A stretch of 29,270 bases of DNA from a virus, in the IMG/VR virus record IMGVR_UViG_3300037189_017202, positions 1-29,270 of that record. One strand, written 5' to 3'. Below are positions 6,838 to 23,385 of the stretch, in pieces; the first letter of the stretch is position 1, and every line of letters begins with the position of its first letter. Under the pieces are notes generated by a model that was given only the letters and a program-made list of their open reading frames with translations, did not search any database and was not told where the DNA came from. The position numbers were made by a program, and so were the translations under genes.

Positions 6838-6873
6838 ACCCCGTCAGGATCACGCGGGGGCTCGCGTGGTCAA
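6838..6873 (-). promoter_or_regulatory. Repeated promoter-like element upstream of baseplate J
   Basis: Reading the minus strand: TTGACC at 6873-6868, 15 bases, TGATCCT at 6852-6846, GACGGGGT, then the GTG start. It fills the 43-base gap after the beta-helix gene's stop. Three other gaps carry the same element with 14-base spacing. A sigma-70-type -10 at 17-18 bases from TTGACC would be TCCTGA, a poor match to TATAAT, and would put the start of transcription next to the start codon. Confidence 0.6.
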
Positions 6874-6880
6874 GCTGCCG

Positions 6881-8266
6881 CTACGGCGCGACGGCGCAGC
6901 CGACCGGCGCGGGTCCCACGTTGCCCTCGATCACCAGCGGGCCGAGCGGGCTGTCATGGCAGCGCACCGGCGCTGAGCTTGAGCTGTGGCGGTACGTGGT
7001 CCGGCCCGCGCCGATGTACGCGCCCGAGATCTCGAGGCTCGAGTGCAGCGGCCCGGTCGTGCGCAGGTCGCTCACCGTCGTGTCGGAGATCAGCGCGCCG
7101 ATCCCCTCGATCGTGACGGCCGCCATCCCCGCGCCGCCGGTGTACTCGAGATCGACGTCGGATATCGTCGTGTCCGCCACGCCGCGCAGCTGGATCGCGT
7201 GGTAGGTGCCGTGCTGCTGGATCGTGACGCCATCGATCCGAATGCCGGTCGGTCCGGTCTCTCGTCGCTCGATAGAGATGACCGGTCCGCCATTGCTGTA
7301 TCGCCGGATGATGCCACCGCTGATGACCGTCTGGGTCGACGCTTTCCGCACCATGATCACCGGGTCGCCGCCGGGGATGTCGAAGTCAAAGTTGTTGTTC
7401 CGCAGCGCGAGGTTCGAGACCTCGGCAAGGTCGACGCCCCGACCCTCGAAGTGGTTGAGTTCGAACGTCACGCCATGCCCGCGCACAACCTGGACGTTGA
7501 GCTCGCCTTCCTCGGCGATGCCGCAGCGGATGAACCGGTTTCCGCGGACGACCAGATTCCGGACGAGCCACGGCGCGCCCACCTGGTCGCCCTCACCATC
7601 GAGAGCCTGGTCGCCGGCGCAGATCTCGTTGCCCTCGACGAACGCGTCCTCGGTGCCCGAGTGCCACGTCCAGCCGCTGCGCGCGCACACCATTCGGTTG
7701 CCGATGAGCACGGTCCCCGTGCTGATCAGGTCTGGGGTGTAGCCAACGCCATGGATGCAGTCACCTCGCTTCTCGCCGACGCGCGGCGGGAAGTTGAAGC
7801 GCGACCGCTCGATCCGCACGCGGTCGGCACCGACCCAGAACAGCAGCCGGCTGTGCTCGTTCGTGCTGCGGAACCCGTCGCCGTCGAGCTCGACGCGATC
7901 AAGCGCGAACCCGTCGCCAACACACAGCCCGCTGATGTCGTCGCGGCCGGCGTCGCCGCGGAACGCCACGCGCGCGCCCGGCATCCCGTAGACGCGGAAC
8001 TCGCCAGCGCCGCCGGGCATGGTCAACAGGCAGTTGCCGCGCGGCCCGGTGGGGACGTCTACGTGGTAGACGCCCGGAGCCTCGCGCAGGTTGACGCAGC
8101 CGGCCTCGGTCATCGAGCGCTGTAGCGCGGCGCGGTCGTCGAGCCCGTCGTCCGGGATGCCGCCGAACGCGGTGATCGACGGACACGTGGTCGCCGCCTC
8201 GGCGGTGAGAGGGTGGTACAGCATTGCAGCGGCCAGGACCGCCAGCGATGTGGTGAGGGTGCGCAT
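6881..8266 (-). CDS. Secreted right-handed beta-helix protein (pectate-lyase-like fold)
   Basis: This encodes 461 residues from ATG 8266. The N-terminus (MRTLTTSLAVLAAAMLYHPL, ending TAEA) is a classical Sec signal peptide with cleavage predicted after AEA near residue 24. The start of the mature part (FGGIPDDGLDDRAALQRSM.EAGCVNLREAPGVYHV) is the usual entry of a beta-helix of the pectate-lyase/polygalacturonase type. Many short turns follow, such as LVVRGNRFIRCGI, LALRNNNFDF and TTISDVDLEYTGG. Such folds occur in polysaccharide lyases, hydrolases and phage tailspikes. The gene lies inside the baseplate operon between gp45 and gp47, yet a virion spike should not have a signal peptide. It may therefore be a cargo enzyme or adhesin. 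Catalytic residues cannot be assigned by eye. Confidence 0.7.
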   Translation of the reverse strand: MRTLTTSLAVLAAAMLYHPLTAEAATTCPSITAFGGIPDDGLDDRAALQRSMTEAGCVNLREAPGVYHVDVPTGPRGNCLLTMPGGAGEFRVYGMPGARVAFRGDAGRDDISGLCVGDGFALDRVELDGDGFRSTNEHSRLLFWVGADRVRIERSRFNFPPRVGEKRGDCIHGVGYTPDLISTGTVLIGNRMVCARSGWTWHSGTEDAFVEGNEICAGDQALDGEGDQVGAPWLVRNLVVRGNRFIRCGIAEEGELNVQVVRGHGVTFELNHFEGRGVDLAEVSNLALRNNNFDFDIPGGDPVIMVRKASTQTVISGGIIRRYSNGGPVISIERRETGPTGIRIDGVTIQQHGTYHAIQLRGVADTTISDVDLEYTGGAGMAAVTIEGIGALISDTTVSDLRTTGPLHSSLEISGAYIGAGRTTYRHSSSSAPVRCHDSPLGPLVIEGNVGPAPVGCAVAP

Positions 8267-8304
8267 CGGCGCCCATGCTGGTGTGCGCCCACGATGCGTG
8301 TCAA
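8267..8304 (-). promoter_or_regulatory. Possible promoter of the beta-helix gene
   Basis: A perfect TTGACA (8304-8299) lies 32 bases before the ATG at 8266. That is nearly the same distance (29-31 bases) as in the four genes with the conserved element. The TGATCCT part is absent here, so this may be a related promoter with separate regulation or a chance hexamer. ATG 8314 upstream would place TTGACA inside the reading frame, but it would also bury the signal peptide, so 8266 is preferred. Confidence 0.35.
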
Positions 8305-8340
8305 CAAAGCTCACTGAGGCTACATCGCCCGCGGTGTGCG

Positions 8341-8901
8341 TCAGCCGCGCAGCGACGGCGTGCCCGACACCGCCGGCGCGCCGCCGCTCAGCCCAGTAAC
8401 CGGCCCGCCGCCGCCGCCGCCGGGCGCGACGAACGTTCCCGGCCCGTGCGTGTGCCCGTCGTACTCGCTCTTGCGCACGAGCGGCGAGAGGGTGCCGCCG
8501 GGCTCGCGCACGTTCACCGCCTTACCCGCCGCCGGCTGCACCTCGATGGTGCCGTCTGGGAGCATGATGATCTTGGCCGAGCTCGTCGGGCTGTAGACGG
8601 TAACCGTCCCGGGCTCACCGCCGGTCGGCGCGCCGCGGCGGTCCGACACCGCGATCACGAGACCGAGCCCGCGGTAGCCGTTGGGGAACACCACGACGGC
8701 CTCAGCGCCGACCGCGGGGACGGCGCGAAAGCCGACCGGCTGGAAGTGCTCAAGCCCGTCTTCGCCCTCGACGGGCTCGCCGGACATCACGCTGAGCTGG
8801 ACCTTTTGCATGTCGAGCGCGTTGTTGACGAGCGTGACGGTGCCGCGCGCCACAAGGTTCGCGATCCGGTTCCGCAGCGGACGGAGAAAGGCTTCGAGCA
8901 T
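8341..8901 (-). CDS. Baseplate spike assembly protein, Mu gp45-like
   Basis: This encodes 186 residues from ATG 8901, sharing one base with the gpP-like stop (TGATG) and preceded by GGAGG. The sequence follows the Mu gp45/P2 gpV-type spike pattern: an N-terminal helix (FLRPLRNRIANLVARG), a QLSVMSGEPVEGEDGLEHFQPVGF OB-like domain, and a beta-helix segment (SSAKIIMLPDGTIEV). Near the C-terminus GHTHG at 149-153 gives an H-x-H pair of the kind that binds metal at membrane-piercing spike tips. A glycine run (161-166) and a flexible tail end the protein. The beta-helix gene follows 75 bases downstream, with nothing else recognisable in that gap. Confidence 0.85.
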   Translation of the reverse strand: MLEAFLRPLRNRIANLVARGTVTLVNNALDMQKVQLSVMSGEPVEGEDGLEHFQPVGFRAVPAVGAEAVVVFPNGYRGLGLVIAVSDRRGAPTGGEPGTVTVYSPTSSAKIIMLPDGTIEVQPAAGKAVNVREPGGTLSPLVRKSEYDGHTHGPGTFVAPGGGGGGPVTGLSGGAPAVSGTPSLRG

Positions 8902-9971
8902 CAGCGGCCTCCGCCGGCGAGCTCTTTCCACTGACCGGCTCCGGTCGCCGACTTGACCGTTGCCGTCGGCTCTGGCGCGAACGCGTCGGGCCGCACGAGC
9001 GCCAACGTTGTCACCTCGCCAGCGTCGTCGACAGAATAGTCGACTTGGGAGATCAGCATGTCGCCGTCGATGCCGATGTAGGGGATCCGCGCGAGCGTGA
9101 TCAGGTTCGGCGCCCAGAGCGCGCGCCCGCCGATTGGCTGCCTCCAGCCGCGGACGATCGCGGTGACCCGCTCAGACCGCGCGGCGCGGATGCGCGCCTC
9201 CCAATCCGCTCGCCGGCGAGCATCAGCGTTGCTCAGTCCGTCGCCGCGCAGGTATTGCACGCGGTTGGTACGGCGCACGCCGAGATCGCGCGCTACCGCC
9301 CTGGTGCTCGTCGCCGCCCCGGACGCCTCATCCGTGCCCGCGACCTGAGACAGCATCACGTATCGGCTGTAACGCTGCGAGGCGTCGTAGTCGATCTCTG
9401 CGTCGACCAGGTTCTCCCCCTCGATCAGGGACGCCGCGCGCGCAGAGCCCGAGCGCGTGATCAACACGTCGCCCCGTCCGTCGGACACCAGCAACACCTC
9501 TTGGTCGCGCGCGACCGCGCTGATCGCCTCGAACACGGTGTCGCCGGGGGCGACGGAGATCCTTGCGATCTTCGGCAGCGTGATCCCCGCATCGACCCTC
9601 ACCCCGACGCCGAACGGCGCTGCTAGCCGGCGCGCGAAATCGTCGAGCGTGATGTTGCGGTACGTCCACTCCGTCAGGTCGGCGCTGTTCGCGACCAGCT
9701 CGCCGGCGCGATCAATCCCGGTGTATGGGAGGTCCGGCGCGCTGAGTCGCTTGCGGCGCTTCTCGACGAACCCCGTGATGACGGGCTCGCCGTCGATCTC
9801 GATGCGGCACTCATCCTCCTCGGCGATCGCCCACGGGATCTCCTGCTGCGCCCATCGATCGTTGGCGAGCAGCGCGAAGGAACCGGCGAGCGTCTCGATC
9901 GAGCGCGTCACTTGGATGCTCCGCCAGCCGCCATAGCGCCGGCCGTTCGCGATCAGCTGCAGATCAGCCAT
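8901..9971 (-). CDS. Baseplate hub protein, Mu gpP-like (gp44)
   Basis: This encodes 356 residues from ATG 9971, overlapping the upstream gene by 8 bases. It starts with LQLIANGRRYGGWRSIQVTRSIETLAGSFAL, the usual opening of the Mu gpP family of contractile-tail hub proteins. EIDGEPVITGFVEK then matches the beta-barrel, and SVAPGDTVFEAISAVARDQEVLLVSDGRGDVLIT the central domain. These proteins form the trimeric hub that holds the spike (gp45), whose gene follows directly with TGATG coupling. Length and order agree with Mu-type tails. Confidence 0.85.
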   Translation of the reverse strand: MADLQLIANGRRYGGWRSIQVTRSIETLAGSFALLANDRWAQQEIPWAIAEEDECRIEIDGEPVITGFVEKRRKRLSAPDLPYTGIDRAGELVANSADLTEWTYRNITLDDFARRLAAPFGVGVRVDAGITLPKIARISVAPGDTVFEAISAVARDQEVLLVSDGRGDVLITRSGSARAASLIEGENLVDAEIDYDASQRYSRYVMLSQVAGTDEASGAATSTRAVARDLGVRRTNRVQYLRGDGLSNADARRRADWEARIRAARSERVTAIVRGWRQPIGGRALWAPNLITLARIPYIGIDGDMLISQVDYSVDDAGEVTTLALVRPDAFAPEPTATVKSATGAGQWKELAGGGR

Positions 9972-11184
9972 CGCTCAAGACCTTGAAGGTGCCGGCCATA
10001 AACCCAGGATGCCGCACCCCGTTGCGCGCGATCACATCCTCCTCGGCATCCACCGCGCCGTACAGCTGGTAGGCGAGCAGCAATGACGGTACCTGCGTCC
10101 GCCGCTCGACCTCGACGACGCGCGCGAAGATCGCGTTCCCGGGAACCTGACGCAGGAGCTCGGCGCGCAGCATGACGAGCTGCGGATAGGTGGCGTCGTC
10201 GGCGCCATCGATCTGCTCGTCGAGCTGGCCGACTACGACGTCGCGCGCCGACGTCGCCGCCTCGATCGAGGCGAACGTAGCGAGAGGCAGCAGCCGGGCC
10301 GCCTCGGTCGCGAACGTCTGCCGGATCGCGCCGGTGAGCGCCACCTGGTTGACGCGCTCGCGCGAGCGCGTCGCGGTAACGCCGATCACCGCGACCCCGA
10401 GGCTCACGGCGTACGACGCGGACAGCGCCGCGGCGACCGCCCCCGGCGTGTCCTGGATGGCGCCGAGCATCCCGGTGATCGCATCCCGGATCGCGTCGAC
10501 CGCGCCGTTCGGCGTGCGCGCTAGAACGTCGGCGTCGTCCGTGATCGTGCGGAGCTTGCCGCCCAGCTCGGCGAGCTCCTGCGCGGTCGTCGCCAGCGGG
10601 GACAGCGCCGCCTCGAGGGCCGCCGCCGCGGACGTGATCGCCGTCGACGCGCTCTCCAGGGCGAACGACGGCATCCCTGACACGTCGTAGCGCTCGGCGA
10701 GCGCGGCGGATGAGGCCGTCGTGGCCTCATCCGCCGCCGCCGCGACCGCGCCCACGGGATCCGCCACGATCTCCGGCACCGGCCGCTGCGACGGCGCCTC
10801 GGCGAAGTCGAGGGTAAACCTCGCCATCCCGCCGTCCGCCGTCGATGTCGAGACGGTGTACGGCCCGCTCACCGCGGTTTTGGTCCCGTACTGTGGATGT
10901 CGCAGCTCGCCGGGCCCCGCCGCCTCGAGGGCGTCGCACAGCGCGTCTCGCTGCGCGAGGTAGTTGTCTCCGATAACGTAGGCCGAGAACGTGAACGAGC
11001 GCGGGAGCTTCCCCTGCGCGTCGTCGACAAACGGGTCATCCCGGAATGGGAACGTGATCACGTTGCGGCGGCGCCCACCGGTGCGCTCGTCGCCATCGAC
11101 GAAAAACGGCACCCCGCGGAATGATCCGCCGATGAACTGCCGGCCGTTGATCGTAACCCTTCCAAGTTTGCCGCGCCACGTCAT
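9964..11184 (-). CDS. Tail/DNA-circularisation protein N family (Mu gpN/gp43-like)
   Basis: This encodes 406 residues from ATG 11184, overlapping the tape-measure stop by 4 bases. Residues about 10-135 (RQFIGGSFRGVPFFVDG.....NVITFPFRDDPFVDDAQGK.P..FTFSAYVIGDNYLAQRDAL..ALEAAGPGEL.HPQYGT) match the DNA_circ_N family. Mu gpN is named for a DNA-circularisation activity but acts structurally near the tail tip. The remainder is Ala-rich and helical (ITSAAAALEAALSPLATTAQELAELGGKL...). Position between tape measure and gpP hub is conserved in Mu-like phages. Confidence 0.85.
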   Translation of the reverse strand: MTWRGKLGRVTINGRQFIGGSFRGVPFFVDGDERTGGRRRNVITFPFRDDPFVDDAQGKLPRSFTFSAYVIGDNYLAQRDALCDALEAAGPGELRHPQYGTKTAVSGPYTVSTSTADGGMARFTLDFAEAPSQRPVPEIVADPVGAVAAAADEATTASSAALAERYDVSGMPSFALESASTAITSAAAALEAALSPLATTAQELAELGGKLRTITDDADVLARTPNGAVDAIRDAITGMLGAIQDTPGAVAAALSASYAVSLGVAVIGVTATRSRERVNQVALTGAIRQTFATEAARLLPLATFASIEAATSARDVVVGQLDEQIDGADDATYPQLVMLRAELLRQVPGNAIFARVVEVERRTQVPSLLLAYQLYGAVDAEEDVIARNGVRHPGFMAGTFKVLSDG

Positions 11185-12668
11185 GGCATGTTACCCAGCT
11201 GGTGACCGAGGTTGAGGTTGACGATCGTCTCGCCGATCGTCGGCGTCGCCGACGCCCGCATCCCCTTCGGAGCGTTGGCGAAATTGACGTCGATCATCGT
11301 GCGCGAATCCCGCGCGCGCTGCGCCGCCGCGACGAACTGCGACGGAGAGAACACCGTGCCGCCACCCTCCCCGAGCTTCCGCAGCTGGTTGAGGGGGTTG
11401 ATGAAGTCGAGCACGTCACCCGCCAGATCATTGATCGTCGAGACCGCATTTACCACCTTCGACACGATCGGCCCGATGGTGTCCCACGCCGCCTCGAACA
11501 CGCGGACGATGCCATCCCATAGACCCGTGAAGAACGCGCCGAGTGGCTCCCACCCGCCAGCGATCTCCTTCGCGGCCAGCACGAGCGCGGCGAGACCGGC
11601 GAGGATCCAACCGATCGGCGTCGTGAGGATGGCAACGCCGAGCGCGACGACCGCGCTGATCAGCGGTCCGGCGATGATTGCAGCAAGCGCGATCGCCACG
11701 ACCTTCACGCCGCCGATCGATTCGACGAACTCCCCGACGTCGTCGAGCGCGCCGTTGAACACATCGGCCATCTTTTCGATCGCCGCCGGGAGCTTGCTGC
11801 CCAGGTCCGAGGCCCACTCTGCGATCCGTTCGCGATTCTCGGCGAACCACCCACGCAGTTGCTCGAGCAACTTGGCCAGCGCCGGGCCGAGCCCCTTTAC
11901 TAGCGCACCCTTGGCGCCGAGGATGGCCGCGTCGAGGTCGTCCATCGCGTCAGCAGCCTCACCGGCGGCAGAAGCGGCCCCCTCAAGCGACCCAGCGTTT
12001 GCTCTGAAGCCTTCCGTGAGTTCTCCGATACCCTTCGACCCCTTGCCGAGGAGCGGAGCGAGCGCCGCGGTTCCAACGGTTTTGGCTGCCAGGGCCGCGC
12101 GCTTCGCGGGATCTTGGATTTTGGCCATCGCGTCGGCGAGCAGGAGAAACGCTTCCTCGTTCGACTTGGTCGCCAGTAGCTGCCGCAGCAGCGCCGGCGA
12201 GACCTTCTCCAGGAAGCCCCTCATCTTGCCGGTGCCCGCGCGCGCCTGGCCGAGCGCCTGGCTGAACGCGAGCATCCCGCTATCCAGATCGGCGAACTCC
12301 GCACCGCTGCGCTTCGCCGCGAACCGCAAACCGGCGAGCGCGTCGACGCCTACGCCGAGCTTCTCGGCGGTGTCGCCGAGGTCGTCGAATTCGTCGACCA
12401 TCGATTTAAGCGCGAGCACCGCCGCGCCGATCGCGCCGGCGATCAGCAACACCTTGCCGAGCGCGTCGCCGATCGCAGAGCCGATCCCGCCGAACGCGGT
12501 GCGCATCTTGTCGAGCCCCGCGCCCTGGTCGAGCTTGCCGAACGCCTCGCGCAGATCGTCGAACGGCTTCGAGGCTGCTTTGAGCTGCTTCGCTACCGCG
12601 CTGATCCCCGCCGACGCGCGGTCGACGGTGCGCAACACGATGCTGAGAGGGACCTTCTTTTCCGCCAT
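11181..12668 (-). CDS. Tail tape measure protein
   Basis: This encodes 495 residues from ATG 12668, whose A is shared with the TGA that ends the frameshifted chaperone. The sequence is Ala/Gly/Leu-rich and helical with two strongly hydrophobic regions (about 73-90 and 322-370) flanked by amphipathic helices, as in tape measure proteins. The N-terminus (VPLSIVLRTVDRASAGISAVAKQLKAA) is typical of the family. It fixes tail length and is ejected with DNA. At roughly 0.15 nm per residue it would specify a tail of about 70-75 nm. This figure rests on a general rule, not on data from this phage. Confidence 0.9.
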   Translation of the reverse strand: MAEKKVPLSIVLRTVDRASAGISAVAKQLKAASKPFDDLREAFGKLDQGAGLDKMRTAFGGIGSAIGDALGKVLLIAGAIGAAVLALKSMVDEFDDLGDTAEKLGVGVDALAGLRFAAKRSGAEFADLDSGMLAFSQALGQARAGTGKMRGFLEKVSPALLRQLLATKSNEEAFLLLADAMAKIQDPAKRAALAAKTVGTAALAPLLGKGSKGIGELTEGFRANAGSLEGAASAAGEAADAMDDLDAAILGAKGALVKGLGPALAKLLEQLRGWFAENRERIAEWASDLGSKLPAAIEKMADVFNGALDDVGEFVESIGGVKVVAIALAAIIAGPLISAVVALGVAILTTPIGWILAGLAALVLAAKEIAGGWEPLGAFFTGLWDGIVRVFEAAWDTIGPIVSKVVNAVSTINDLAGDVLDFINPLNQLRKLGEGGGTVFSPSQFVAAAQRARDSRTMIDVNFANAPKGMRASATPTIGETIVNLNLGHQLGNMP

Positions 12669-13224
12669 CAGCGTGCTCCTGCGATCTTCACGGCCTGATC
12701 GTACCAGCGCATCAGCTCACGGGGCTCGAGCGCCCACAGCTCGGCGAGCGACCAGTGGAGCACATGGGCGATCGTCGCTATCGCGGTCTCGACTTGCTCC
12801 TGCCCCCCAGGCAGCGACCCAAAAAACCCACGGCGATCGCATTCACCTCCCCGGCGTCTTCGCCGTCGAGCTTGTCGATGATGTGCGATTCGCAGCCCGC
12901 GAGCCGCGAGGCGATCCTAAGGATCAGGTCGGCGCTGATGTCGTCCGCCTTCGCCGGCAAACGCAGACCGCGGATGTCGGCCGCGACGCCACGGCGGACC
13001 ATCAGCCGCGTGATGACCTCTCCGTCGGAGACCTTGATCGGGTAGGCGAGTTTGACCTCGCGCGGCCAGACCTCGAGGGTCTTTGGGTCCTCGCCCACGA
13101 GCTCGTGCGCGAGCGCGGCAGCGTCCGCCACCTCGGTGAGCCACTGCGCCAGCGGCTTGTCGCCGGCCGCGCGCGTCCACGCCTCGATCTGGTCGGGGTC
13201 AAGCTCCATGTCGAGCGACGACAT
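12668..13224 (-). CDS. Tail assembly chaperone, long form made by programmed -1 frameshift (GT-like)
   Basis: This is the joined reading of about 185 residues: frame 0 from ATG 13224 to the slippery run at 12820-12829, then the -1 frame to TGA at 12670-12668. The -1 extension has no start of its own and encodes about 50 residues, including HWSLAELWALEPRELMRW and ending DQAVKIAGAR. That matches the C-terminal part usual for frameshifted chaperones (E'/T), with a Trp-Ser..E...L pattern. It ends exactly on the tape-measure start with a TGATG junction. As in lambda G/GT or P2 E/E', the minor long product probably recruits the tape measure while the short one is in excess. This extension is not a stand-alone ORF and would be missed by routine calling. 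Confidence 0.8.
12778..13224 (-). CDS. Tail assembly chaperone, short form (G-like)
   Basis: This encodes 148 residues from ATG 13224, sharing one base with the tube stop (TGATG). The block KLAYPIKVSDGEVITRLMVRRGVAADIRGL matches the Phage_TAC family of Mu/P2-type tail chaperones. It lies between tube and tape measure as expected. Frame 0 ends at TAG 12780-12778 after a low-complexity basic end (GGRSKSRPR), which is what remains when ribosomes do not shift. See the long form for the -1 extension. Confidence 0.85.
   Translation of the reverse strand: MSSLDMELDPDQIEAWTRAAGDKPLAQWLTEVADAAALAHELVGEDPKTLEVWPREVKLAYPIKVSDGEVITRLMVRRGVAADIRGLRLPAKADDISADLILRIASRLAGCESHIIDKLDGEDAGEVNAIAVGFLGRCLGGRSKSRPR
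12820..12829 (-). promoter_or_regulatory. Programmed -1 ribosomal frameshift site
   Basis: On the minus strand the frame-0 codons are GTG GGT TTT TTG. Two overlapping heptamers of the X-XXY-YYZ type exist: G-GGT-TTT (12829-12823) and T-TTT-TTG (12826-12820). Shifting back one base opens a frame that continues for about 50 codons and ends on the next gene's start. A G6 run follows closely and may help or form part of a stimulatory structure, which I could not fold. Confidence 0.8.
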
Positions 13225-13592
13225 CAGGTGATCTCCTTAGCCGGGCTGGCGCCCTCGAAGCGGACGGTGATCTCTGCTTCCTCGGTGGATACGTTGCCGT
13301 CGCCCGCGTAGTAGGCCTCACGCAGGGAGATCATCTTGCCGTTACCGGCCCGCAGGGTGACGGTCGCGTTTTGCAGCGTCACCAGCGCCGCGAGATCGAG
13401 GTTGCTGCGGTCGGTGATCACGCCCTCGATGAATGCGACCTGGGGCGTCTCCTTGAATCCGTGCGTTCCGTCCGCTCCGATGATCGGCTCGCGGAGCGGG
13501 TAACCGAGGTTGTAGGTGAATGCGCCCTTGGCATCCTGAACCGTGCCGTTCGTCTTGAGCTCGATGAGCCCCGCGCGCCGTTGGTTGGCCAT
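13224..13592 (-). CDS. Tail tube protein (Mu gpM-like)
   Basis: This encodes 122 residues from ATG 13592. The segments ANQRRAGLIELKTNGTVQDAKGAFTYNLGYPLREPIIGADG and FIEGVITDRSNLDLAALVTLQNATVTLRAGNGK.ISLREAYYAGDG...EEAEITVRFEG match the Mu-type tail tube family closely, and the length is normal (about 115-120 residues). It forms the inner tube inside the contractile sheath. It follows the sheath gene after 15 bases and shares one base with the chaperone start. Confidence 0.9.
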   Translation of the reverse strand: MANQRRAGLIELKTNGTVQDAKGAFTYNLGYPLREPIIGADGTHGFKETPQVAFIEGVITDRSNLDLAALVTLQNATVTLRAGNGKMISLREAYYAGDGNVSTEEAEITVRFEGASPAKEIT

Positions 13593-13607
13593 GATCGTGC
13601 GTCCTTT

Positions 13608-15089
13608 CTAGATCCGGAACTGGAACTTCGTGGCTTGGCCGATCAGCTGATTGATCAGGTCCGGCTGCATCAGCCAATTGAGCCGGTTGCGGTTCGCGAC
13701 GTCGCGCTCGACGACGAGATCGCGCGCGAACCGCGCTGCGTTCTCGGCGAGTCCGAGCTCGACCATGTCGTCGAACCAGTTGATCGCCTCCGCCTTGCCG
13801 AGCTGCGGCGTCATCACGTCCTGGCCCGGGCCGAACTTCGTGCCGTCGTCGGCGAGTTTGTGGCGCGGGAATTTCTGCTGCATCCGCACCCGCCAGCTGT
13901 ACCGGTAGTACATCAGCGTGAGCGGCGTGTTGACGTCGAGATACGACGTGTCGTCGGCGCCCGATGGGCTCGTCTGGTAGGTCGTGATCATCCGGTCGAG
14001 CTGGATGGCGCCGCCGGCCACCGCCACGCTCGTGCTAATTCCGTCGAACAGGAACAGGTTCCGCTCCGACGCGTCCCATCGATCGGTTTCCGGCGTCTGC
14101 ACGATGCGGCTGATAGCGAGCGTCTGGACCGGCCGCGCCGGATCGACCGCGCCGTTTTTCGAGACGACGGCCGCGACCGCCGCCGCGAACTCCCACGGCG
14201 GGGTGAGCGGCGATGCGCCCGGCTGCACGATGATGCTCGAGTGCTGGCTGTTGCGCCCGCCGCCGAGCGCGGTGATCGTCCCGAAGCTCCCGACCGTCGA
14301 CGTGATGGCCACGCCGTCGATCGACCGCTGCGGACCGAACCGCGACGCGAGATCGGTCTCGATCGCCGTGAGGCTCGTCGAGTCCGTGTATGGGTGAGAC
14401 CAGATGTTGAGCCACAGATCGGAGATCGCCGAGATCAGCGTGGTGAGCACCGGGTTCAGCGTGCCCGCGACGACGCCGCCCATCGCGGTGATCGTCAGCG
14501 TGACGCCAGTCGGCAGAGCCTCGCCCGAGAGGAAGCTGTGCCTGATGTCGTAGCTGTTTCCCGCGAGCCCCTTGTGGCGGAACGCGACCGTGACCGTCGC
14601 CGTGCTGACGGTCGACGTCACCGGGAGATCGAGCGTCGCGTTGATCGCCGCGCTGATCGCCGTCGCGATCGCCGTCGCCGCGTCGCCGCTGGTCACGCCG
14701 ACCGTCACGCGCTCGCCGCCGAGGTAGAGCACGATCGTTCCGGTCGCCGTCGCCGGTCCCGCGACGAGGATCGTTCCGGTCGCCGCAACGCCCGACGCGT
14801 TGTCGTCGAGCACGCCGATCCACAACTCGGTCTCGGTGTTGTTGCTGAACCGCGCGAGCGCCATGCGATGGATCAGCGAGCCGCGCCCGCCGCCCGTGAT
14901 CGCCTGATCGATGCTGGTGCAGCGATTGACGGTGTTCGCCGTCCATGTCCCCGTCGACAGTCGCTGGCCGACAAGGAACTCCTTGTAGGACAGCAGCGCC
15001 GGCCCCTGTGTCGCTTGCGAGTTGTCGAACTCCGCGAACACGAACGGGATGCGGAGCGAGGACGGGATGTTGTTGAACGTGATCGCCAT
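13608..15089 (-). CDS. Contractile tail sheath protein (Mu gpL-like)
   Basis: This encodes 493 residues from ATG 15089 with GAGGTAAC directly upstream. N-terminal ITFNNIPSSLRIPFVFAEFDNSQA matches the sheath family opening. The middle has alternating A/T/V-rich beta domains (residues about 100-230), and the C-terminus carries the conserved core (LDRMITTYQTSPSG..DTSYLDVNTPLTLMYYRYSWRVRMQQKFPRHKLADDGT). Length, neighbours (DUF2635 before, tube after) and the terminal domain agree with Mu gpL. It shows the virion is a contractile-tailed phage. Confidence 0.93.
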   Translation of the reverse strand: MAITFNNIPSSLRIPFVFAEFDNSQATQGPALLSYKEFLVGQRLSTGTWTANTVNRCTSIDQAITGGGRGSLIHRMALARFSNNTETELWIGVLDDNASGVAATGTILVAGPATATGTIVLYLGGERVTVGVTSGDAATAIATAISAAINATLDLPVTSTVSTATVTVAFRHKGLAGNSYDIRHSFLSGEALPTGVTLTITAMGGVVAGTLNPVLTTLISAISDLWLNIWSHPYTDSTSLTAIETDLASRFGPQRSIDGVAITSTVGSFGTITALGGGRNSQHSSIIVQPGASPLTPPWEFAAAVAAVVSKNGAVDPARPVQTLAISRIVQTPETDRWDASERNLFLFDGISTSVAVAGGAIQLDRMITTYQTSPSGADDTSYLDVNTPLTLMYYRYSWRVRMQQKFPRHKLADDGTKFGPGQDVMTPQLGKAEAINWFDDMVELGLAENAARFARDLVVERDVANRNRLNWLMQPDLINQLIGQATKFQFRI

Positions 15090-15090
15090 G

Positions 15091-15294
15091 TTACCTCACA
15101 GTCAGCGGAGCGACGGGCTCGCGTCCGGTCGGGGTGTGGTCGTCGTCGGTGACGAGCTCGACTTCGCGGCTGCTGAGCCGTCGATGCCAAAAAATCGAAT
15201 CGTCTGGCACGTTGCCGCCCTCGACCGGCAGCACGCGTCTCGGGTCGTTCGGATAGCGCAGCACCGCTTTAGGATCTGTCGGCCTGACCTTCAT
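15091..15294 (-). CDS. DUF2635 protein (Mu gp38-like)
   Basis: This encodes 67 residues. The pattern is the short DUF2635 type: MKVRPTDPKAVLRYPNDPRRVLPVEG, then VPDDSIFWHRRLSSREVEL. Such a gene almost always sits just before the sheath in Mu-like phages; its function is unknown. It overlaps the upstream terminator-like gene by 4 bases and ends 1 base before the sheath start. Confidence 0.85.
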   Translation of the reverse strand: MKVRPTDPKAVLRYPNDPRRVLPVEGGNVPDDSIFWHRRLSSREVELVTDDDHTPTGREPVAPLTVR

Positions 15295-15839
15295 GTTGGC
15301 TCCTGAACGTTGAATAGATCCTGCATATCGTTGTCGACCGTCATCTCCGGCGGACGGAACCGCTCGCCGGCGGTGACGAAGGTGTCCGCGGCGCCATCGA
15401 CCGGCGACGTGTAATAGATTACCGAGTAGGTCAGCACAGCGATCCCGATGAGCGGATCGGGGCCGCCATCGTCTGGGATCTCGATGTCGGTCGACTCGAG
15501 CGAGCTATCGGCCGCGGCGCCTGCGAAAGTCTCGTCGAGCGACATCGCGTTTTCGATCTCCTCGGCGATGTCGTCGAGCGCGTCCGCCGCCGGTAGGCCA
15601 TCGGTGTGGCGGACCTTCGCGACAACCTCAAAACGCGCGTTGCGCACGATTTCGCGGATCGACGAGTCGCTCGCTCTCGAGGTTACCGGCTCGGTGAGGC
15701 AGTACACGCTGATCGCCGGCAGCCGCGTCTTTTTGATCGGGTCGATGCGGGTCGAGCTCACGCGATCGCCGGCAGCCGTGTTCGCGGCGAGCAGCCGCGC
15801 CACGATGGCCTGACGGATGAGCTTGCGCTGATGCGCCAC
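15291..15839 (-). CDS. Tail terminator / minor tail protein candidate
   Basis: This encodes 182 residues from GTG 15839 (VAHQRKLIRQAIVARLL...). Longer TTG-initiated readings would run into the promoter element. The pattern IRQAIVARLLAA....DRV..TRI.P.....LPAISVY...E, then ARFEVVAKV..., ADALDDIAEEIENAM and a final beta strand IAVLTYSVIYYTS is typical of gpU-like tail terminator proteins, which cap the tail before head joining. Identification is by pattern and position, not by an exact motif. The start follows the conserved TGATCCT element by 9 bases. Confidence 0.6.
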   Translation of the reverse strand: MAHQRKLIRQAIVARLLAANTAAGDRVSSTRIDPIKKTRLPAISVYCLTEPVTSRASDSSIREIVRNARFEVVAKVRHTDGLPAADALDDIAEEIENAMSLDETFAGAAADSSLESTDIEIPDDGGPDPLIGIAVLTYSVIYYTSPVDGAADTFVTAGERFRPPEMTVDNDMQDLFNVQEPT

Positions 15840-15875
15840 CCGCCCGTGAGGATCACGCGGCGCAGAGTCTGTCAA
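15840..15875 (-). promoter_or_regulatory. Repeated promoter-like element upstream of the tail module
   Basis: Minus strand: TTGACA at 15875-15870, 14 bases, TGATCCT at 15855-15849, CACGGGCGG, then GTG. It lies just downstream of an intrinsic terminator, so it is well placed to restart transcription for the tail genes. This is the best contextual support for the promoter reading of the four-copy element. Confidence 0.7.
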
Positions 15876-15884
15876 CGAGCGCCG

Positions 15885-15924
15885 AAAAGGCCACAGCCCC
15901 GGCGGAGTAGTACCGGGGCTGTGG
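15885..15924 (-). terminator. Intrinsic (rho-independent) terminator between head and tail modules
   Basis: CCACAGCCCCGG pairs perfectly with CCGGGGCTGTGG around a 10-base loop (stem 15891-15902 with 15913-15924). On the minus strand the stem is followed by CC and then TTTT. The 12-bp GC-rich stem is strong; the T-tract is short. It ends the transcript coming from the head genes and is followed within 10 bases by a promoter-like element. Confidence 0.8.
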
Positions 15925-15985
15925 CGCGACGGCGCGAAAGGACTAACTGCCGCCGCAAGACGGGCCGCGCCCGCCGGACGTCAGG

Positions 15986-16303
15986 CTAGCACGGCTGCGC
16001 CGGCTCGGTCCCCGGCATCTCGGCAGTCGGCGCCGAGCTCGGGTCGACCAGGCACTGCCGGGCGTTGCGGATGTCGTCGAGCTTCGCGTGGTAGCCCGTG
16101 ACGATCGGATCCTGCGGTCGGATGACCAGTTCGCGACGCAGCCGGATCGCTTCCTCGAGGTCGCTCATCTTCGGTTCGAGCGGTGACTCGAGCTCCTGGA
16201 TCGCGACCGCCGCCGCGTCGCCCCCGGTCGTGCTATCCGGGAAGCGTGCGCGCAGATCGTTGCACACCAACGCGATGACATCGGCTCTCGTGATCAGCTC
16301 CAT
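15986..16303 (-). CDS. Hypothetical phage protein
   Basis: This encodes 105 residues from ATG 16303 with GGAGG 4 bases upstream. It is mostly helical and charged (TRADVIALVCNDLRARF; PKMSDLEEAIRLRRELVI; TGYHAKLDDIRNARQCL), with a Pro/Thr/Glu-rich tail. It has no signal, membrane segment or motif I recognise. It lies after the adaptor-fusion gene and before the terminator, the last gene of the head transcript. By position it could be a head-completion or tail-joining protein, but there is no direct evidence. Confidence 0.6.
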   Translation of the reverse strand: MELITRADVIALVCNDLRARFPDSTTGGDAAAVAIQELESPLEPKMSDLEEAIRLRRELVIRPQDPIVTGYHAKLDDIRNARQCLVDPSSAPTAEMPGTEPAQPC

Positions 16304-16327
16304 GTTGCCTCCGTGCCCGCCCCTCGA

Positions 16328-18637: not shown

Positions 18638-18652
18638 GGCTGGCCCCTTTCG

Positions 18653-19027
18653 CTAGGCGAACGTCAGGACGTAGGACGTGACGGTGTACGTGTCGCCGTT
18701 GGTGGCGACGGCCGCGGCGCTGATGTCGGTGCCGACCTGCCCTTGCCGCACGACGGTGCCGCCGGCATTGACGAACCGGAAGTAGGTCGGGGTTCCCGCG
18801 AGGGTCACCGTGGTTGACCACGTGTTCTGTTTCGCCGCCTGACCGTTCGTCGCGACGTCCCATGGCGACGTCGGGAGGGTGATGTCCGCGATCAGCGTGC
18901 CGGTCGCCGTCGCCGTCGCTAGCGGCACCGAGCCGTTGTAGAACTGCAAGCGCGCGGTCGCCGGGAACGCCGCCACGAATCGGTCGCGGTCGGCGTTGCG
19001 GTCGGCGGTGTTTCCTACGAGGGCCAT
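18653..19027 (-). CDS. Small beta-rich phage structural protein
   Basis: This encodes 124 residues from ATG 19027 with GGAG 8 bases upstream. The stretch RLQFYNGSVPLATATATGTLIADITLP, the P.YFRFVNAGGTVVRQGQVGTD strand pair and the closing TYTVTSYVLTFA form a compact beta-sandwich pattern. It is found in small head-associated proteins next to DUF2190 genes. It may be a capsid decoration or head-fibre protein. I cannot name a family. It precedes the fusion gene by 15 bases. Confidence 0.6.
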   Translation of the reverse strand: MALVGNTADRNADRDRFVAAFPATARLQFYNGSVPLATATATGTLIADITLPTSPWDVATNGQAAKQNTWSTTVTLAGTPTYFRFVNAGGTVVRQGQVGTDISAAAVATNGDTYTVTSYVLTFA

Positions 19028-19055
19028 GTCATGCTCTCCGGCTTGGGGTCAGGGA

Positions 19056-19412
19056 TCAGGCGACGTTGACGACGGCGCCGATGTTGAGCAGCCGGACCGA
19101 CCCGGTCGTGTCGCCCAACGCCGCCGCGGCTGCTGCGTGACCGGCTCGGCACGCCGTCGCCGACTGCGCCGTGACGAAGTTGTTGTTTGCTGTGTCGAAG
19201 TAGAGGGTCGCGCCCTCGGTCCACGCGGTGCCGGTCGCTTTTGCCAGGGTGTGCACTCCGGCGAGATCCGCGTCGAACGGGAGGGTCTGCGCGACCGTGG
19301 TCCGCGGAACCACGATGAGCGAGCCGATCTTGAGCGCAGTGCCGGCGGTGACGCCGCCGGACGGCGCGGTGAGCTGGATGACGTCGCCGGGCTGGATGAA
19401 CGTTCTGGACAT
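19056..19412 (-). CDS. DUF2190 capsid-associated protein
   Basis: This encodes 118 residues from ATG 19412 with GGAG upstream. The opening SRTFIQPGDVIQLTAPSGGVTAGTALKIGSLIVVP, then GVHTLAKATGTAWTEGATLYFD and AGHAAAAAALGDTTGSVRLL, is the standard DUF2190 pattern. These proteins are coded next to the major capsid gene and are thought to decorate the capsid, possibly as a recombination-infused fibre head. It follows the protease/capsid gene after 42 bases that hold nothing else recognisable. Confidence 0.85.
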   Translation of the reverse strand: MSRTFIQPGDVIQLTAPSGGVTAGTALKIGSLIVVPRTTVAQTLPFDADLAGVHTLAKATGTAWTEGATLYFDTANNNFVTAQSATACRAGHAAAAAALGDTTGSVRLLNIGAVVNVA

Positions 19413-19454
19413 GTCGATCTCCGTGTTGTGTTACGCGCCGAACTTGGTTGCTGA

Positions 19455-21503
19455 TTACGAGCCCGCGCAGGTAACGGCGCCGCGGAAGTCGAGCGCCGCC
19501 ACGCCGTAATCGAGGATCACCTTCATCTGCACGCCGTCGAATCCGAACGACTGTTCGGACTCGATGCGCGGCGCTTCCTGTCCGTCGAGGAACCCGACGG
19601 CAAACACGGGGAACATCGTCGGATCCGCGAGCAGGTAGTGCCGCGTCGCCGACTGCGCCGACAGGTACGGCGAATCGACGATCTCGCGGAAGAGGTTCAG
19701 CACCCTGTTCGAAACGCCCTGCGCCTTGTTGTCGGTCGGGTCGGTCGTCGAGCTGTTGAACTGCTTCGCGATGCCGCCGAGCTCGACAGGGCCGAGCCAG
19801 ATCGCGGGGCGCAACGCGAGGAACTGATTCGCGCTGGGGTCTTTTTGCTTCGCCATGATGGCGCGCGCTCCGTCGAGCGTCGCCGCGCTCATCGCGCCAG
19901 TGGGGCCGATGTTGATGCGGCTCGGATGGAACAGCGGGTTGGCGTCGTAGGTTACGCCGAGTCCGCTGTTCGCGGTGACCATGGCGAACGCGTCCGCCTC
20001 GACGGTGAACGCCGCGGCCATGCCGAGCCCAGACGCCAAATTCTGAAACGCGCCGAGATCATCGTTCGCGAGCGCCCTCCGCGTGATGCCGATGATGTTC
20101 CCCTTCGTGCCGGGGGCCATCGTCCTTTTTTCGCCGTCCGGGATGTTCTTGTGCTTGATCTCGCCGCTCTCGCCCACCGAGTCGAGCACGCCGAACGTGC
20201 CCGGCCGGTAGAACGTCGACGTGCGGAAATCCTGGACCGACTTGCGGCCACACCACATCGGCCACGTCACTGGCACCATCGCGTACGAGCCGATGAAGAT
20301 CTTGTTGACCGCCGTCTCGAGGAGGATCGCGAAATCGCTCGTCGTGTTGAAGCCCTGATCGCCGCGCGATTCGAGGGCCTTGCGGATCAGGATCTCGCCA
20401 TGCAGCCCCTTGCAGGAACGGCCGCGCATCTCGAGCGCGTAGCGAGCGAGGTCGTGCATCCTCATGCCACCGAACTCGCCCGAGTCCGTAGCGATGCCAG
20501 AGAAGTGCTTTGCGAGACGCGGCACGGTCTTCGCGTGGGCGATCGTCTCGAGATGGCCGGTCCGTTCGAGGATTGAGGCGAGCGCGCCGCGAACGAACTT
20601 CTCACTCTTGTCGTCGCCGGCCTCGAAGCGGAGGATCGCATCCGTGTTCGTCTCGCGGTCGCGAGTCGCGAGGTGGTTGAGCACGTGCTCGCGGACCTTG
20701 TCGATCGGCGTGTTCGCGGCGATGAAGCGCTCGGCAAGCGCCTCGCCGAGATCCGTCCGTCCGACGATGCGGCGGATCTCGATGCCGCGCTCGCGCTCGG
20801 CCGCCATGGCGCGATCGGCAGCTTCCTGCGCTGCCTGATTATCGGCCGCGCGTTGCTGGTCACGTTGCTTGCGAGCGCTCTCCACTAGCAGATCAGTCGG
20901 ATCCACCGCGGCGGGCTTCGGGTTGGTTTCGTCGTCACGCATTGATCGCTCCTCGAATACGCAGGGGTTCGTCTCACGCTGATCACTTGCTCGCACCGCG
21001 CCGCCAGAATCGGCGCCGATCGGCACGACCGAGATCTCATATGGTTCCCAATCGACCGCGCGGTAGACCGGGACCGCGCCCTCGCCATCCTCGGTCTTCT
21101 TCAACTTGTGGATTCGGTATCCGACGGAGATATTGCCGAGGATGCCATCGGCGACCTTTTGAAAGATCGCATCGGACCGGGCGTCTTTTGCGAAGCGCAC
21201 GGTCGCCGTGCCCGCTTTGTCGCCGAGCTCGGCGCTCGCGACAACGCCGATCACGTGGTCATTGCTCCAGCTCGAGTGAGCATCGAGCAGCGGGGCGCGG
21301 CCGGATTTCAAGCGGCCCATGCGCACGTGCTTCTTTTCGAGGCTCAGTTCTTCCCAGAACTGGTCAAAGTAGCCTCGGAGCACTCGCTCGCCGGTCGTCC
21401 ACGTGATGTCCACCGTGCGCGCGTCGACGTTGATCGACTTCGGCACGACGGCCGCGCGCATTTCCAGCGGTCCGATATCGCGGGTCACGGTACGCATCGC
21501 CAT
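19455..21503 (-). CDS. Prohead protease / major capsid protein fusion
   Basis: This encodes 682 residues from ATG 21503; ATG 21497 (MRTV) is a close alternative. Residues about 15-170 form an HK97-type prohead serine protease: PLLDAHSSWSNDHVIGVV gives catalytic His76, ILGNISVGYRI gives Ser126, followed by the conserved WEPYEISVVPIGAD. Residues 200-250 are a charged coiled coil (KQRDQQRAADNQAAQEAADRAMAAERER) that would act as scaffold. The rest is an HK97-fold major capsid domain (for example RKSVQDFRTSTFYRPG, NDDLGAFQNLASGLGMAAAF). One polypeptide therefore carries protease, scaffold and shell, and capsid must be released by self-cleavage. It begins 10 bases after a conserved promoter-like element. 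Confidence 0.9.
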   Translation of the reverse strand: MAMRTVTRDIGPLEMRAAVVPKSINVDARTVDITWTTGERVLRGYFDQFWEELSLEKKHVRMGRLKSGRAPLLDAHSSWSNDHVIGVVASAELGDKAGTATVRFAKDARSDAIFQKVADGILGNISVGYRIHKLKKTEDGEGAVPVYRAVDWEPYEISVVPIGADSGGAVRASDQRETNPCVFEERSMRDDETNPKPAAVDPTDLLVESARKQRDQQRAADNQAAQEAADRAMAAERERGIEIRRIVGRTDLGEALAERFIAANTPIDKVREHVLNHLATRDRETNTDAILRFEAGDDKSEKFVRGALASILERTGHLETIAHAKTVPRLAKHFSGIATDSGEFGGMRMHDLARYALEMRGRSCKGLHGEILIRKALESRGDQGFNTTSDFAILLETAVNKIFIGSYAMVPVTWPMWCGRKSVQDFRTSTFYRPGTFGVLDSVGESGEIKHKNIPDGEKRTMAPGTKGNIIGITRRALANDDLGAFQNLASGLGMAAAFTVEADAFAMVTANSGLGVTYDANPLFHPSRINIGPTGAMSAATLDGARAIMAKQKDPSANQFLALRPAIWLGPVELGGIAKQFNSSTTDPTDNKAQGVSNRVLNLFREIVDSPYLSAQSATRHYLLADPTMFPVFAVGFLDGQEAPRIESEQSFGFDGVQMKVILDYGVAALDFRGAVTCAGS

Positions 21504-21540
21504 CCCCCGCGTGAGGATCAGCGGGCCCCGCGCGTGTCAA
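21504..21540 (-). promoter_or_regulatory. Repeated promoter-like element upstream of the protease/capsid gene
   Basis: Minus strand: TTGACA at 21540-21535, 14 bases, TGATCCT at 21520-21514, CACGCGGGGG, then ATG. It fills the 48-base gap after the portal stop. The only purine-rich motif is the G-run touching the ATG, which is too close to serve as a Shine-Dalgarno. Confidence 0.65.
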
Positions 21541-21551
21541 GCCCACCGCGA

Positions 21552-23117
21552 TCAGGCGGGCGGCGCTGGGTCGGTGTCGTCGGGCGGATCCGACTCAAAA
21601 TCGACGTTATCGTTCGCCGCCGGCGCGGCAGCCGGGGCCGCCGGCTTGGGCGCCGCCGCCGCGGCTGCCGCCCTGCCCTGTAGCTGTCCGCTCGTGGTCA
21701 TGTTGCGGGGGTCGCCGTCGAGCACGATCCCGAGCTTGTCGATCGCCGCATTGAACGCCGCGATCTCCTTGAGCTGCGTTGCCGGGTCGTAACCGAGCGA
21801 GCGCACCATCTGATCCCACGTGATCGCGCCGATGCGCTGCAGCCGCATGTACGCGAGCCCCTCTTTGTCGGGCTCGAGCATCGGCATCGGGGGCGGCGCC
21901 CACTCGGCCGACGTGCCCGCGACCTCCTCGCCGGCGAGCTGGGAGATGTCCATCACCGCATCCCACACCGGCGTGCAGAACTGCGACACCATGAGGTGCC
22001 AAACCCACTGTTCGATGTTGCGCTCGTAGGCGAGCCGGGCCATCCGCGCCGACGAAAAGCTCGTCTTGCTGTAGTCGCCGGACAGCCGCTCGTACGGGAT
22101 GCCGAGCCCGGCCGCCACCGCGCGGAGCTGCGTCACGGTGTACGACTCGTGGTCGCTCGATTGCGGCGGGTTGGTGACGGTCGCGCTCTTGCCCGGCGGC
22201 ATCGTGAGGATCATGCCCGGCTGCAGCTCGTCGGTCGGGTGGCCGGTCGTCGAGTCCACTCCGGCGATGCCGCTCGCCGACGCCCCGCCCTCGGGATCCG
22301 TCAGGATTACCGCCATGCAGGCGGCAATTTTCTGCTTCATCAACGTCGCATCCTCGTAGTCCGCGAAGTCGTGCAGCCGAACATCGACGCTCGCGAACCA
22401 CGACGGGCCGCGCAACTGCCCCGGCCGCTCCATCACGTACACGTGCAGGATCTGATCGGCGGGGATCCGGTTCGAGACCGGGTTGAAAAGGATGCTGTTG
22501 GCGCCCGGATGCCGGTCGAACAGCCAATACGCGGCACGTCGGCCGATGGCGTCGAGCTCGATGCCCTGAACGATCGAGCCGCCGTTCGGCAGCTGGATCC
22601 CGTCGCGCTCGGTGTCGAGAAGATCAGGCTCCATCACCTGCAGCTGCAGCGGGATCGCGAGCCCGTCGTCCGGCCGTCTGGCGCGCATGCGGATCAGGCA
22701 CTCGCCGGATTCCGCCACGCAGCGCATCACCAACGCCTGCAGGCCGTAGAAATCGACGCGGCCGGCCGCATCGCACTGGCGGGTCTCGCCCCATTGCCGC
22801 CAGAGCTCCGCCGCGCGCGCGGCGCCGCGGCCGGACGGTCGCGGCCGAATGCCCCAGCCAACGACGTCGGCGACGATCCCGCGGAGGCCGTTGCGCGCCC
22901 ATGCGTTGTTGCGCACGAGGTCGCGCGCCTGCGCGCGCAGCAGCCGCAGGGTAGGGCCGCTCGCCGCCGCGTTGGCGTCGCTCTGCCGCCGCGACCAGCC
23001 ATCGGTGCGTCGGCCGAACGACGCCGACTCGTAGTGCCGTGCGGCCAGCCGCGCCCGCGCGCGCTTCGCACCCCACTGCGGCGCAATGTACGAGATCGCC
23101 TTGTCGATGATGTTCAT
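21552..23117 (-). CDS. Portal protein, lambda gpB family
   Basis: This encodes 521 residues from ATG 23117, which overlaps the gpW-like stop by 4 bases (ATGA). The start MNIIDKAISYIAPQWGAKRARARLAARHYESA and LRAQARDLVRNNAWARNGLRGIVADVVGWGIRP are typical of lambda-type portals. PADQILHVYVMERPGQLRGPSWFASV, LMKQKIAACMAVILTDP and the core GLGIPYERLSGDYSKTSFSSARMARLAYERNIE also match. It forms the dodecameric DNA entry ring. The C-terminus is a disordered Ala/Pro/Asp tail. Upstream in-frame codons reach 23372 but are a shadow of the gpW-like gene. Confidence 0.93.
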   Translation of the reverse strand: MNIIDKAISYIAPQWGAKRARARLAARHYESASFGRRTDGWSRRQSDANAAASGPTLRLLRAQARDLVRNNAWARNGLRGIVADVVGWGIRPRPSGRGAARAAELWRQWGETRQCDAAGRVDFYGLQALVMRCVAESGECLIRMRARRPDDGLAIPLQLQVMEPDLLDTERDGIQLPNGGSIVQGIELDAIGRRAAYWLFDRHPGANSILFNPVSNRIPADQILHVYVMERPGQLRGPSWFASVDVRLHDFADYEDATLMKQKIAACMAVILTDPEGGASASGIAGVDSTTGHPTDELQPGMILTMPPGKSATVTNPPQSSDHESYTVTQLRAVAAGLGIPYERLSGDYSKTSFSSARMARLAYERNIEQWVWHLMVSQFCTPVWDAVMDISQLAGEEVAGTSAEWAPPPMPMLEPDKEGLAYMRLQRIGAITWDQMVRSLGYDPATQLKEIAAFNAAIDKLGIVLDGDPRNMTTSGQLQGRAAAAAAAPKPAAPAAAPAANDNVDFESDPPDDTDPAPPA

Positions 23118-23350
23118 CGGCCGAGCCCCTTGTTCACCGTGCCGAGCCGGAACCCGCCGGTACCGCGCACGGCTTGCTCCGCCGACGCGAGCAGCGCACG
23201 CAGCTCGCCGATTTGTACGATGCCGTAGCTCTGCGTTCGCGCCGGCGGTCCGGCATACGACACGCTCACCACCCGCTGGCCGGTGGCGAGCTTCATCACC
23301 GCCGCCCGCAGCGCCGCGACATCCTCGGCTGTCCAGGTCACATCGGCCAT
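23114..23350 (-). CDS. Head-tail joining protein, gpW-like
   Basis: This encodes 78 residues from ATG 23350: W(T/S)AEDVAALRAAVMKLATGQRVVSVSYA....QSYG..QIGELRALLASAE. This is the gpW pattern of two helices and a beta hairpin, at the usual length of about 70-80 residues. gpW stabilises packaged DNA and prepares the head for tail joining. It sits between large terminase and portal, as in lambda. The start lies 8 bases after the conserved TGATCCT element, with only a G-run in between and no spaced ribosome binding site. Confidence 0.85.
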   Translation of the reverse strand: MADVTWTAEDVAALRAAVMKLATGQRVVSVSYAGPPARTQSYGIVQIGELRALLASAEQAVRGTGGFRLGTVNKGLGR

Positions 23351-23385
23351 GCCCCGTCAGGATCAGGCACATCGCGACGTGTCAA
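23351..23385 (-). promoter_or_regulatory. Repeated promoter-like element upstream of the gpW/portal genes
   Basis: Minus strand: TTGACA at 23385-23380, 14 bases, TGATCCT at 23365-23359, GACGGGGC, then ATG at 23350. A -10 hexamer 17 bases from TTGACA would be TCCTGA (23362-23357), placing the predicted +1 at about the A of the start codon. It sits in the 56-base gap after the large terminase. Confidence 0.65.

Follow-up and report, generated by a model that had tools for sequence, protein, structure and literature searches.

How are the structural genes of a phage switched on when four of them are preceded, at a nearly fixed distance, by the same short element and seem to lack Shine-Dalgarno (SD) sequences? 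This question is raised by the IMG/VR virus record IMGVR_UViG_3300037189_017202, a stretch of 29,270 bases (67.7% GC; hereafter the window) whose minus strand carries the structural genes of a contractile-tailed phage: terS, terL, gpW, portal, capsid-protease, decoration, tail terminator, sheath, tube, tape measure, hub, and baseplate J. An earlier note on this sequence described four minus-strand copies of the element, each composed of TTGACA (TTGACC once) followed by TGATCCT[G/C]ACG, and they are present as described (see table). Judged from the sequences compared here, the element likely serves as late promoter in a clade of temperate phages with contractile tails, in which TTGACR combined with CGTGATCC, and assisted by a phage factor, would give rise to leaderless or near-leaderless late mRNAs.

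In the window, the -35 hexamer is separated from TGATCCT[G/C]ACG by 14 bases in elements 1, 2, and 3 and by 15 bases in element 4, whose spacer is longer by one base, as are those of the baseplate J promoters of two large related contigs (G019 and G020). The start codon lies 29-31 bases from the hexamer and 8-10 bases after TGATCCT at all four copies, in agreement with the earlier note, and the gene roles assigned there (gpW-portal, capsid-protease fusion, tail terminator, and baseplate J) were confirmed by PHROG. The pattern TTGAC[AC]-N14/15-TGATCCT occurs 4 times in the window, compared with a mean of 0.003 in 300 dinucleotide shuffles. Moreover, a matrix trained on other contigs only places the window's four copies at the top ranks (23-31 bits), after which the score falls from 23 to 9 bits. 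An extra TGATCCTCACG at 22213-22203, within the portal gene, is not accompanied by TTGAC and seems to be a match by chance.

Relatives were retrieved from IMG/VR by two motif scans. The first used TTGACM-N14/15-TGATCCTSACG, required no start codon, and yielded 42 stretches, which were counted as relatives of the window if their GC content exceeded about 60% and a gene start lay just downstream; the second, with a looser core and a required start codon (RTGGC downstream), added about 28 new stretches. Some of the relative contigs are fragments of the same phage. Two relatives (L048 and L049) were found by capsid protein search alone, in which the motif was not used, and both bear the element. 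In all, about 30 related GC-rich phage contigs bear it, with 85 distinct sites that have a gene start. These sites give the consensus S-TTGAC[A>G>C]-N12-CGTGATCC-T, followed by 9-12 nt and ATG or GTG in 80 of the 85 sites; the sixth base of the -35 block is A, G, or C, and the conserved second block is CGTGATCC(T), not TGATCCTSACG, the SACG part being variable. Identity between sites reaches 100% in TTGAC and 93% in CGTGATCC, compared with 35% in the N12 spacer (28% expected by chance), and block spacing is constant in 81/85 sites. Two blocks around a near-random spacer are, as far as sequence comparison goes, a two-site footprint at the DNA level with sigma-70 spacing. A palindrome or hairpin at CGTGATCCTCACG was ruled out, as its right arm is not conserved.

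Gene starts are located 9-15 nt after the block in the contigs of the first scan, and a gene begins 8-15 nt after 74 of the 77 exact sites; the element is almost absent inside genes, rather than equally frequent there, an outcome that the earlier note had considered. The reversed pattern gave 0 sites and letter-permuted patterns a mean of 0.1, and exact sites never occur on both strands of one contig. The element is a genome-only marker for this clade of uncultured phages and aids start-codon calls. Weaker opposite-strand copies, with 1-2 mismatches, stand back to back with the main element in L139 (18030-18060, plus strand) and L201 (9898-9923, plus strand), which suggests occasional divergent late promoters.

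The genes headed by the element are the first of separate structural units, as had been proposed for the window, and the same junctions recur in the relatives. In particular, the element (with at most 1 mismatch) precedes gpW at 22/23 junctions, capsid at 24/27, tail terminator at 14/22, and baseplate J at 8/11. The junction survey of relatives gave 0 elements before portal, decoration, sheath, tape measure, terL, and hub, and 1 each before tube and one further baseplate gene. The element is kept despite divergence of the proteins, which share 37-53% (gpW) and 38-67% (capsid) identity with those of the window. The four largest contigs (G005, G009, G019, and G020; 44-51 kb) have 5-7 strong copies each, in or beside the late block; in G005 and G009, some copies also head genes downstream of the tail block. 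No strong copy was found by the matrix scan in the early region of these four contigs.

The last result bears on the suggestion that the element is an operator or stoperator, bound by a phage repressor or other DNA-binding protein, and that the real promoters lie elsewhere. CI/Cro-like regulators are present in these phages, and asymmetric directional repeats near gene starts resemble, by analogy, the stoperators of mycobacteriophages. However, it is in the early region, devoid of strong sites, that a repressor would act, and neither an exact -35 consensus with sigma-70 spacing nor tight coupling to unit-heading start codons only would be expected of an operator. In addition, the logo contains no other promoter signal upstream, and element 3 begins about 10 nt after a strong hairpin, which leaves no room for another promoter. 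An operator function is therefore considered improbable. The hairpin is intrinsic-terminator-like and separates the head from the tail units; given its position, the tail unit needs a promoter exactly at element 3.

The promoter reading can be described base by base. In sigma-70 numbering, the first T of TTGAC is -35, the TG of the second block is -15/-14, and its T is -12. A TTGACA-like -35 hexamer is present (each base of TTGAC in 80-81 of 81 sites, with A preferred to G and G to C at the sixth position), and the distance to the -10 position is 17 in 81/85 sites and 18 in 4/85. An extended -10 TGn, which alone is not sufficient, is also present (T-15 in 79/81, G-14 in 80/81). A TATAAT-like -10 with A-11 is absent: C-11 occurs in 81/81 sites and C-10 in 76/81, at positions for which sigma-70 prefers A and T, so that the departure from TATAAT pointed out in the window extends to the relatives. 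The start codon falls at +1 to +4, relative to a predicted 5' end, in 80/85 sites. It is proposed that sigma region 4 would position RNA polymerase on TTGACR at -35, and that the conserved CGTGATCC block, from -17 to -10, would stand in for the -10 hexamer and would probably be read by a phage-made DNA-binding factor. Such a factor is probably needed because C-11/C-10 should not be opened by the housekeeping sigma alone. Transcription would start at the ATG/GTG or 0-5 nt before it, and the mRNAs of the structural units would be leaderless, or nearly so, and initiated without SD sequences.

As a calibration, canonical promoters were sought at the same distance from gene starts (TTGACR-N16/18-TAnnnn-N5-8-start). 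This early-type pattern was found at 7 sites, and at 0 sites with about 60 permuted -35 hexamers. The 7 sites have the form TTGACR-N17/18-TAnnnn-N5-7-ATG. Of these, the four largest contigs contribute five, which belong to early operons or the CI/Cro region, and G014 and G004 contribute one each. The early genes concerned (see table) have a near-normal -10 and their start codon at about +1 to +3. Promoters of leaderless geometry thus appear to form two classes, an early one with an AT-rich -10 and a late one with CGTGATCC instead. Since canonical early promoters are equally far from their start codons, the late class resembles a leaderless sigma-70 promoter in which the -10 has been swapped: early and late genes would have the -35 and the start-codon geometry in common and differ in the -10 only. 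This pair of classes is the most important new finding, and it is what best strengthens the leaderless reading, with its predicted 5' ends, that the earlier note had already put forward. The element marks a real, clade-wide class, probably of leaderless late promoters with a substituted -10. In L134, a GTG that lies upstream of the predicted ATG is the probable start of the CI-like gene. G004, a contig of about 60% GC and doubtful kinship to the phage clade, has, besides its one early-class promoter, an exact element (L141, 7538-7568, minus strand) with no open reading frame (ORF) of at least 60 aa just downstream.

Promoters that abut the start codon in the absence of an SD sequence, as is proposed for the genes here, are known from Deinococcus-Thermus (TANNNT leaderless promoters; PMC12340547) and mycobacteria (PMC4633059), and mycobacterial leaderless genes use both ATG and GTG, as do the genes described here (PMC4633059). 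The -10 TANNNT is the hallmark of the Deinococcus-Thermus promoters; the early class matches it, whereas the late class keeps the -35 and carries CGTGATCC in place of the -10.

A fixed distance to the start codon could also arise if the element acted on mRNA, either through pairing of GTGATCC with GGAUCAC just upstream of the anti-SD of 16S rRNA or through an RNA-binding protein, in the manner of the start-associated sequences (SAS) of cluster K mycobacteriophages. GTGATCC is the exact complement of the established 16S rRNA sequence beside the anti-SD, and the cluster K SAS was described as start-associated (PMC3203893). However, the anti-SD slot would then be 15-18 nt from the start codon, which is too far, and SD-like pairing of GTGATCC to 16S rRNA was rejected for its wrong geometry. 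Moreover, an action on mRNA leaves the rigidly spaced upstream TTGAC unexplained, the motif has no SD core and the spacer no conservation, and in early promoters with this geometry its place is taken by TAnnnn. An mRNA-level role is hence regarded as highly improbable. Cluster K SAS and extended SAS (ESAS) are short directional repeats a few nucleotides before the start codons of many genes, conserved in relatives (PMC3203893, PMC11373665); SAS is GGGATAGGAGCCC with an SD core and occurs in the non-structural half of the genome, and ESAS contains inverted repeats, SigA-like -35/-10 sequences, and putative promoters. The element studied here differs in sequence, has no SD core, inverted repeat, or -10, and precedes late genes only.

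If the late promoter is as proposed, the question is which protein reads CGTGATCC. The earlier note had suggested a phage-encoded activator or sigma factor. The sigma part found no support: among 7 records tested, sigma-70 region 2 was found in none and a region-4-like protein above the family cut-off only in G005, and a phage sigma factor was accordingly rejected as the general reader. Proteins with a C-terminal sigma-70 region 4 and no region 2 are encoded in L134 (G005; 14707-14961, plus strand) and L210 (about 4752-4994, plus strand), with the recognition helices LTRERIRQVE and LTRERVRQIE, respectively; in L210 the gene lies directly before a gene for a zinc-finger (ZF) MerR-type protein, and G005 has both. 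It is possible that the region-4-like protein is a sigma-4-like co-factor in some members. A split sigma composed of this protein and the ZF protein was ruled out, as the former is missing from the other three largest contigs. The PF00940 profile (T7-type RNA polymerase) gave no match, but neither did the control, so this search is uninformative.

The activator part of the suggestion gained a candidate, a protein of about 115 aa with a zinc finger (C26/C29/H41/C46) and a putative MerR/excisionase-type winged helix, whose gene was detected by closing gaps in gene calls. In relatives, the gene is located just upstream of a MinorTailZ-like gene, terS, and terL. It is present in every contig with more than 5 kb upstream of terL (G009, G015, G019, G020, and G024) and also in L042 and in G005, which reads on from its other end and was taken as circular. 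Overall, of the 11 contigs whose sequence extends 2.3 kb or more upstream of terL, 7 have the gene, as do 6/6 of those with more than 5 kb or taken as circular; in four contigs, which extend 2.4-4.9 kb there, it was not detected. A scan of IMG/VR with the ZF protein, independent of the element, gave 8 contigs, of which 7 have structural genes, and the element is present in 7/7 of these. PHROG 2474, annotated 'MerR-like', weakly matches all 7/7 members of the ZF protein (best E 9e-5), and the match of Pfam MerR_1 is not significant. An AlphaFold2 model built from 7 sequences (predicted local distance difference test, pLDDT, 78) contains a beta-beta-alpha finger and a wing like that of BldC/SoxR, to which Foldseek aligns it with a probability of about 0.9-0.96 and an E-value of only 0.1-0.3.

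MerR proteins act within the promoter spacer, and the candidate would therefore suit the site. Phage late activators that use host sigma-70 usually keep the -10 and make contact at or above the -35. In P2 Ogr and Mu C late promoters, as here, several operons share a motif, and the activator is a small DNA-binding protein, as is the candidate encoded near the late block here; Ogr is also a zinc protein. In those promoters the activator site is located at or upstream of the -35 and the -10 is kept, whereas here the -35 is kept and the -10 replaced. The lambda Q element between the -35 and -10 of pR' resembles what is proposed here in that a phage protein acts in the spacer/-10 region, but lambda has one such promoter per genome, with a long leader and pause site, unlike the several promoters with start codons at +1 to +4 described here. 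Literature searches on the motif, and on late activators of the MerR type with leaderless mRNAs, yielded no relevant work.

The same promoter might instead be read by a host alternative sigma (-35 TTGAC, -10 GATCC) with no phage factor. It fits with this idea that no sigma is common to the phages and that the only regulators seen in all of the largest contigs are a CI/Cro-like one and the ZF-MerR-type protein. However, a constitutive host sigma would keep the late genes active in a lysogen. No sigma family is known to combine TTGAC with GATCC. This alternative is unlikely, if not extremely so. The ZF-MerR-type protein is the candidate, though a weaker and unproven one, for the activator that reads the element. 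The full proposal, that it reads CGTGATCC at -17 to -10 together with sigma region 4 on TTGACR and thus turns leaderless housekeeping promoters into a late class, with leaderless mRNAs for virion proteins including the major capsid, is tentative and on balance doubtful. If it were true, very abundant phage proteins would be made from leaderless mRNAs, which are often thought to be weak or a special mode; in any case, it names a candidate regulator that can be tested.

Several findings weigh against the late-promoter reading or its candidate factor. Neither the 3.9 kb that the window has upstream of terL nor the corresponding 4.9 kb of G014 contains the ZF-MerR-type gene, and what links the protein to the element is co-occurrence alone. 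Most contigs were retrieved through at least one copy of the element, and the second scan demanded RTGGC downstream. A terminator upstream of the element was found in only 1/84 cases, element 3 of the window, so a general rule of this kind was ruled out. As for the statement that the four genes lack a properly spaced SD sequence, SD cores are present in 13% of element genes, in 28% of the other genes, and in 8% of random stretches, and over the last 11 nt ahead of the start codon the two groups of genes show no difference in duplex energy (p 0.19). Because these energies are alike, the SD argument for leaderless mRNAs is modest.

Possible hosts were also searched. The capsid was found in 11 of 284 Myxococcota genomes, and the capsid-bearing stretches (2-5 kb) contain no close copy of the element; a motif scan of 379 Myxococcota genomes gave one match. 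When 379 genomes of Myxococcota and 398 of Pseudomonadota were searched for the ZF protein, matches were weak and mostly partial, or absent.

Table. Positions of the elements, the genes they head, and early genes of related phages
Feature	Sequence	Coordinates	Strand	Remark
Element 1 (gpW-portal unit), -35 block TTGACA	window	23380..23385	-	
Element 1, second block CCTGATCC	window	23360..23367	-	ATG 23350, 9 nt downstream, = +1 in sigma-70 numbering
gpW-like head-tail adaptor Ad1, first gene of unit 1	window	23114..23350	-	PHROG 75
Portal, next after gpW in unit 1	window	21552-23117	-	PHROG 21
Element 2 (capsid unit), -35 block TTGACA	window	21535..21540	-	
Element 2, second block GCTGATCC	window	21515..21522	-	ATG 21503, 11 nt downstream, = +3
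Major head + protease fusion protein, first gene of unit 2	window	19455..21503	-	PHROG 4523
Strong hairpin, 14 bp stem, then TTTT	window	15885..15925	-	-35 kcal/mol, z -5; directly upstream of element 3
Element 3 (tail unit), -35 block TTGACA	window	15870..15875	-	
Element 3, second block CGTGATCC	window	15850..15857	-	GTG 15839, 10 nt downstream, = +2
Tail terminator, first gene of unit 3	window	15291..15839	-	PHROG 4204; then sheath, tube, tape measure, hub
Element 4 (baseplate unit), -35 block TTGACC	window	6868..6873	-	
Element 4, second block CGTGATCC	window	6847..6854	-	GTG 6837, 9 nt downstream, = +1
Baseplate J-like protein, first gene of unit 4	window	5758..6837	-	PHROG 6
Early gene with TTGACR-TAnnnn promoter	L132	19598-19822	-	
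Early gene with TTGACR-TAnnnn promoter	L133	1561-1728	+	
Early gene with TTGACR-TAnnnn promoter	L134	10901-11068	-	
Early gene with TTGACR-TAnnnn promoter	L134	11839	+	
Early gene with TTGACR-TAnnnn promoter	L188	5875-6117	+	
Early gene with TTGACR-TAnnnn promoter	L193	3987-4361	+	
Early gene with TTGACR-TAnnnn promoter	L142	12159-12320	-	

Two minor features of the window may be added. Two adjacent small ORFs on its minus strand (27351-27109 and 27650-27381) have identical first 24 bases (MSVDQYKL) and are both preceded by GGACGA, a duplicated gene start. A small ORF located upstream of the terminase genes ends in a short in-frame repeat coding for LQELQELQELQ (26807-26860, minus strand).

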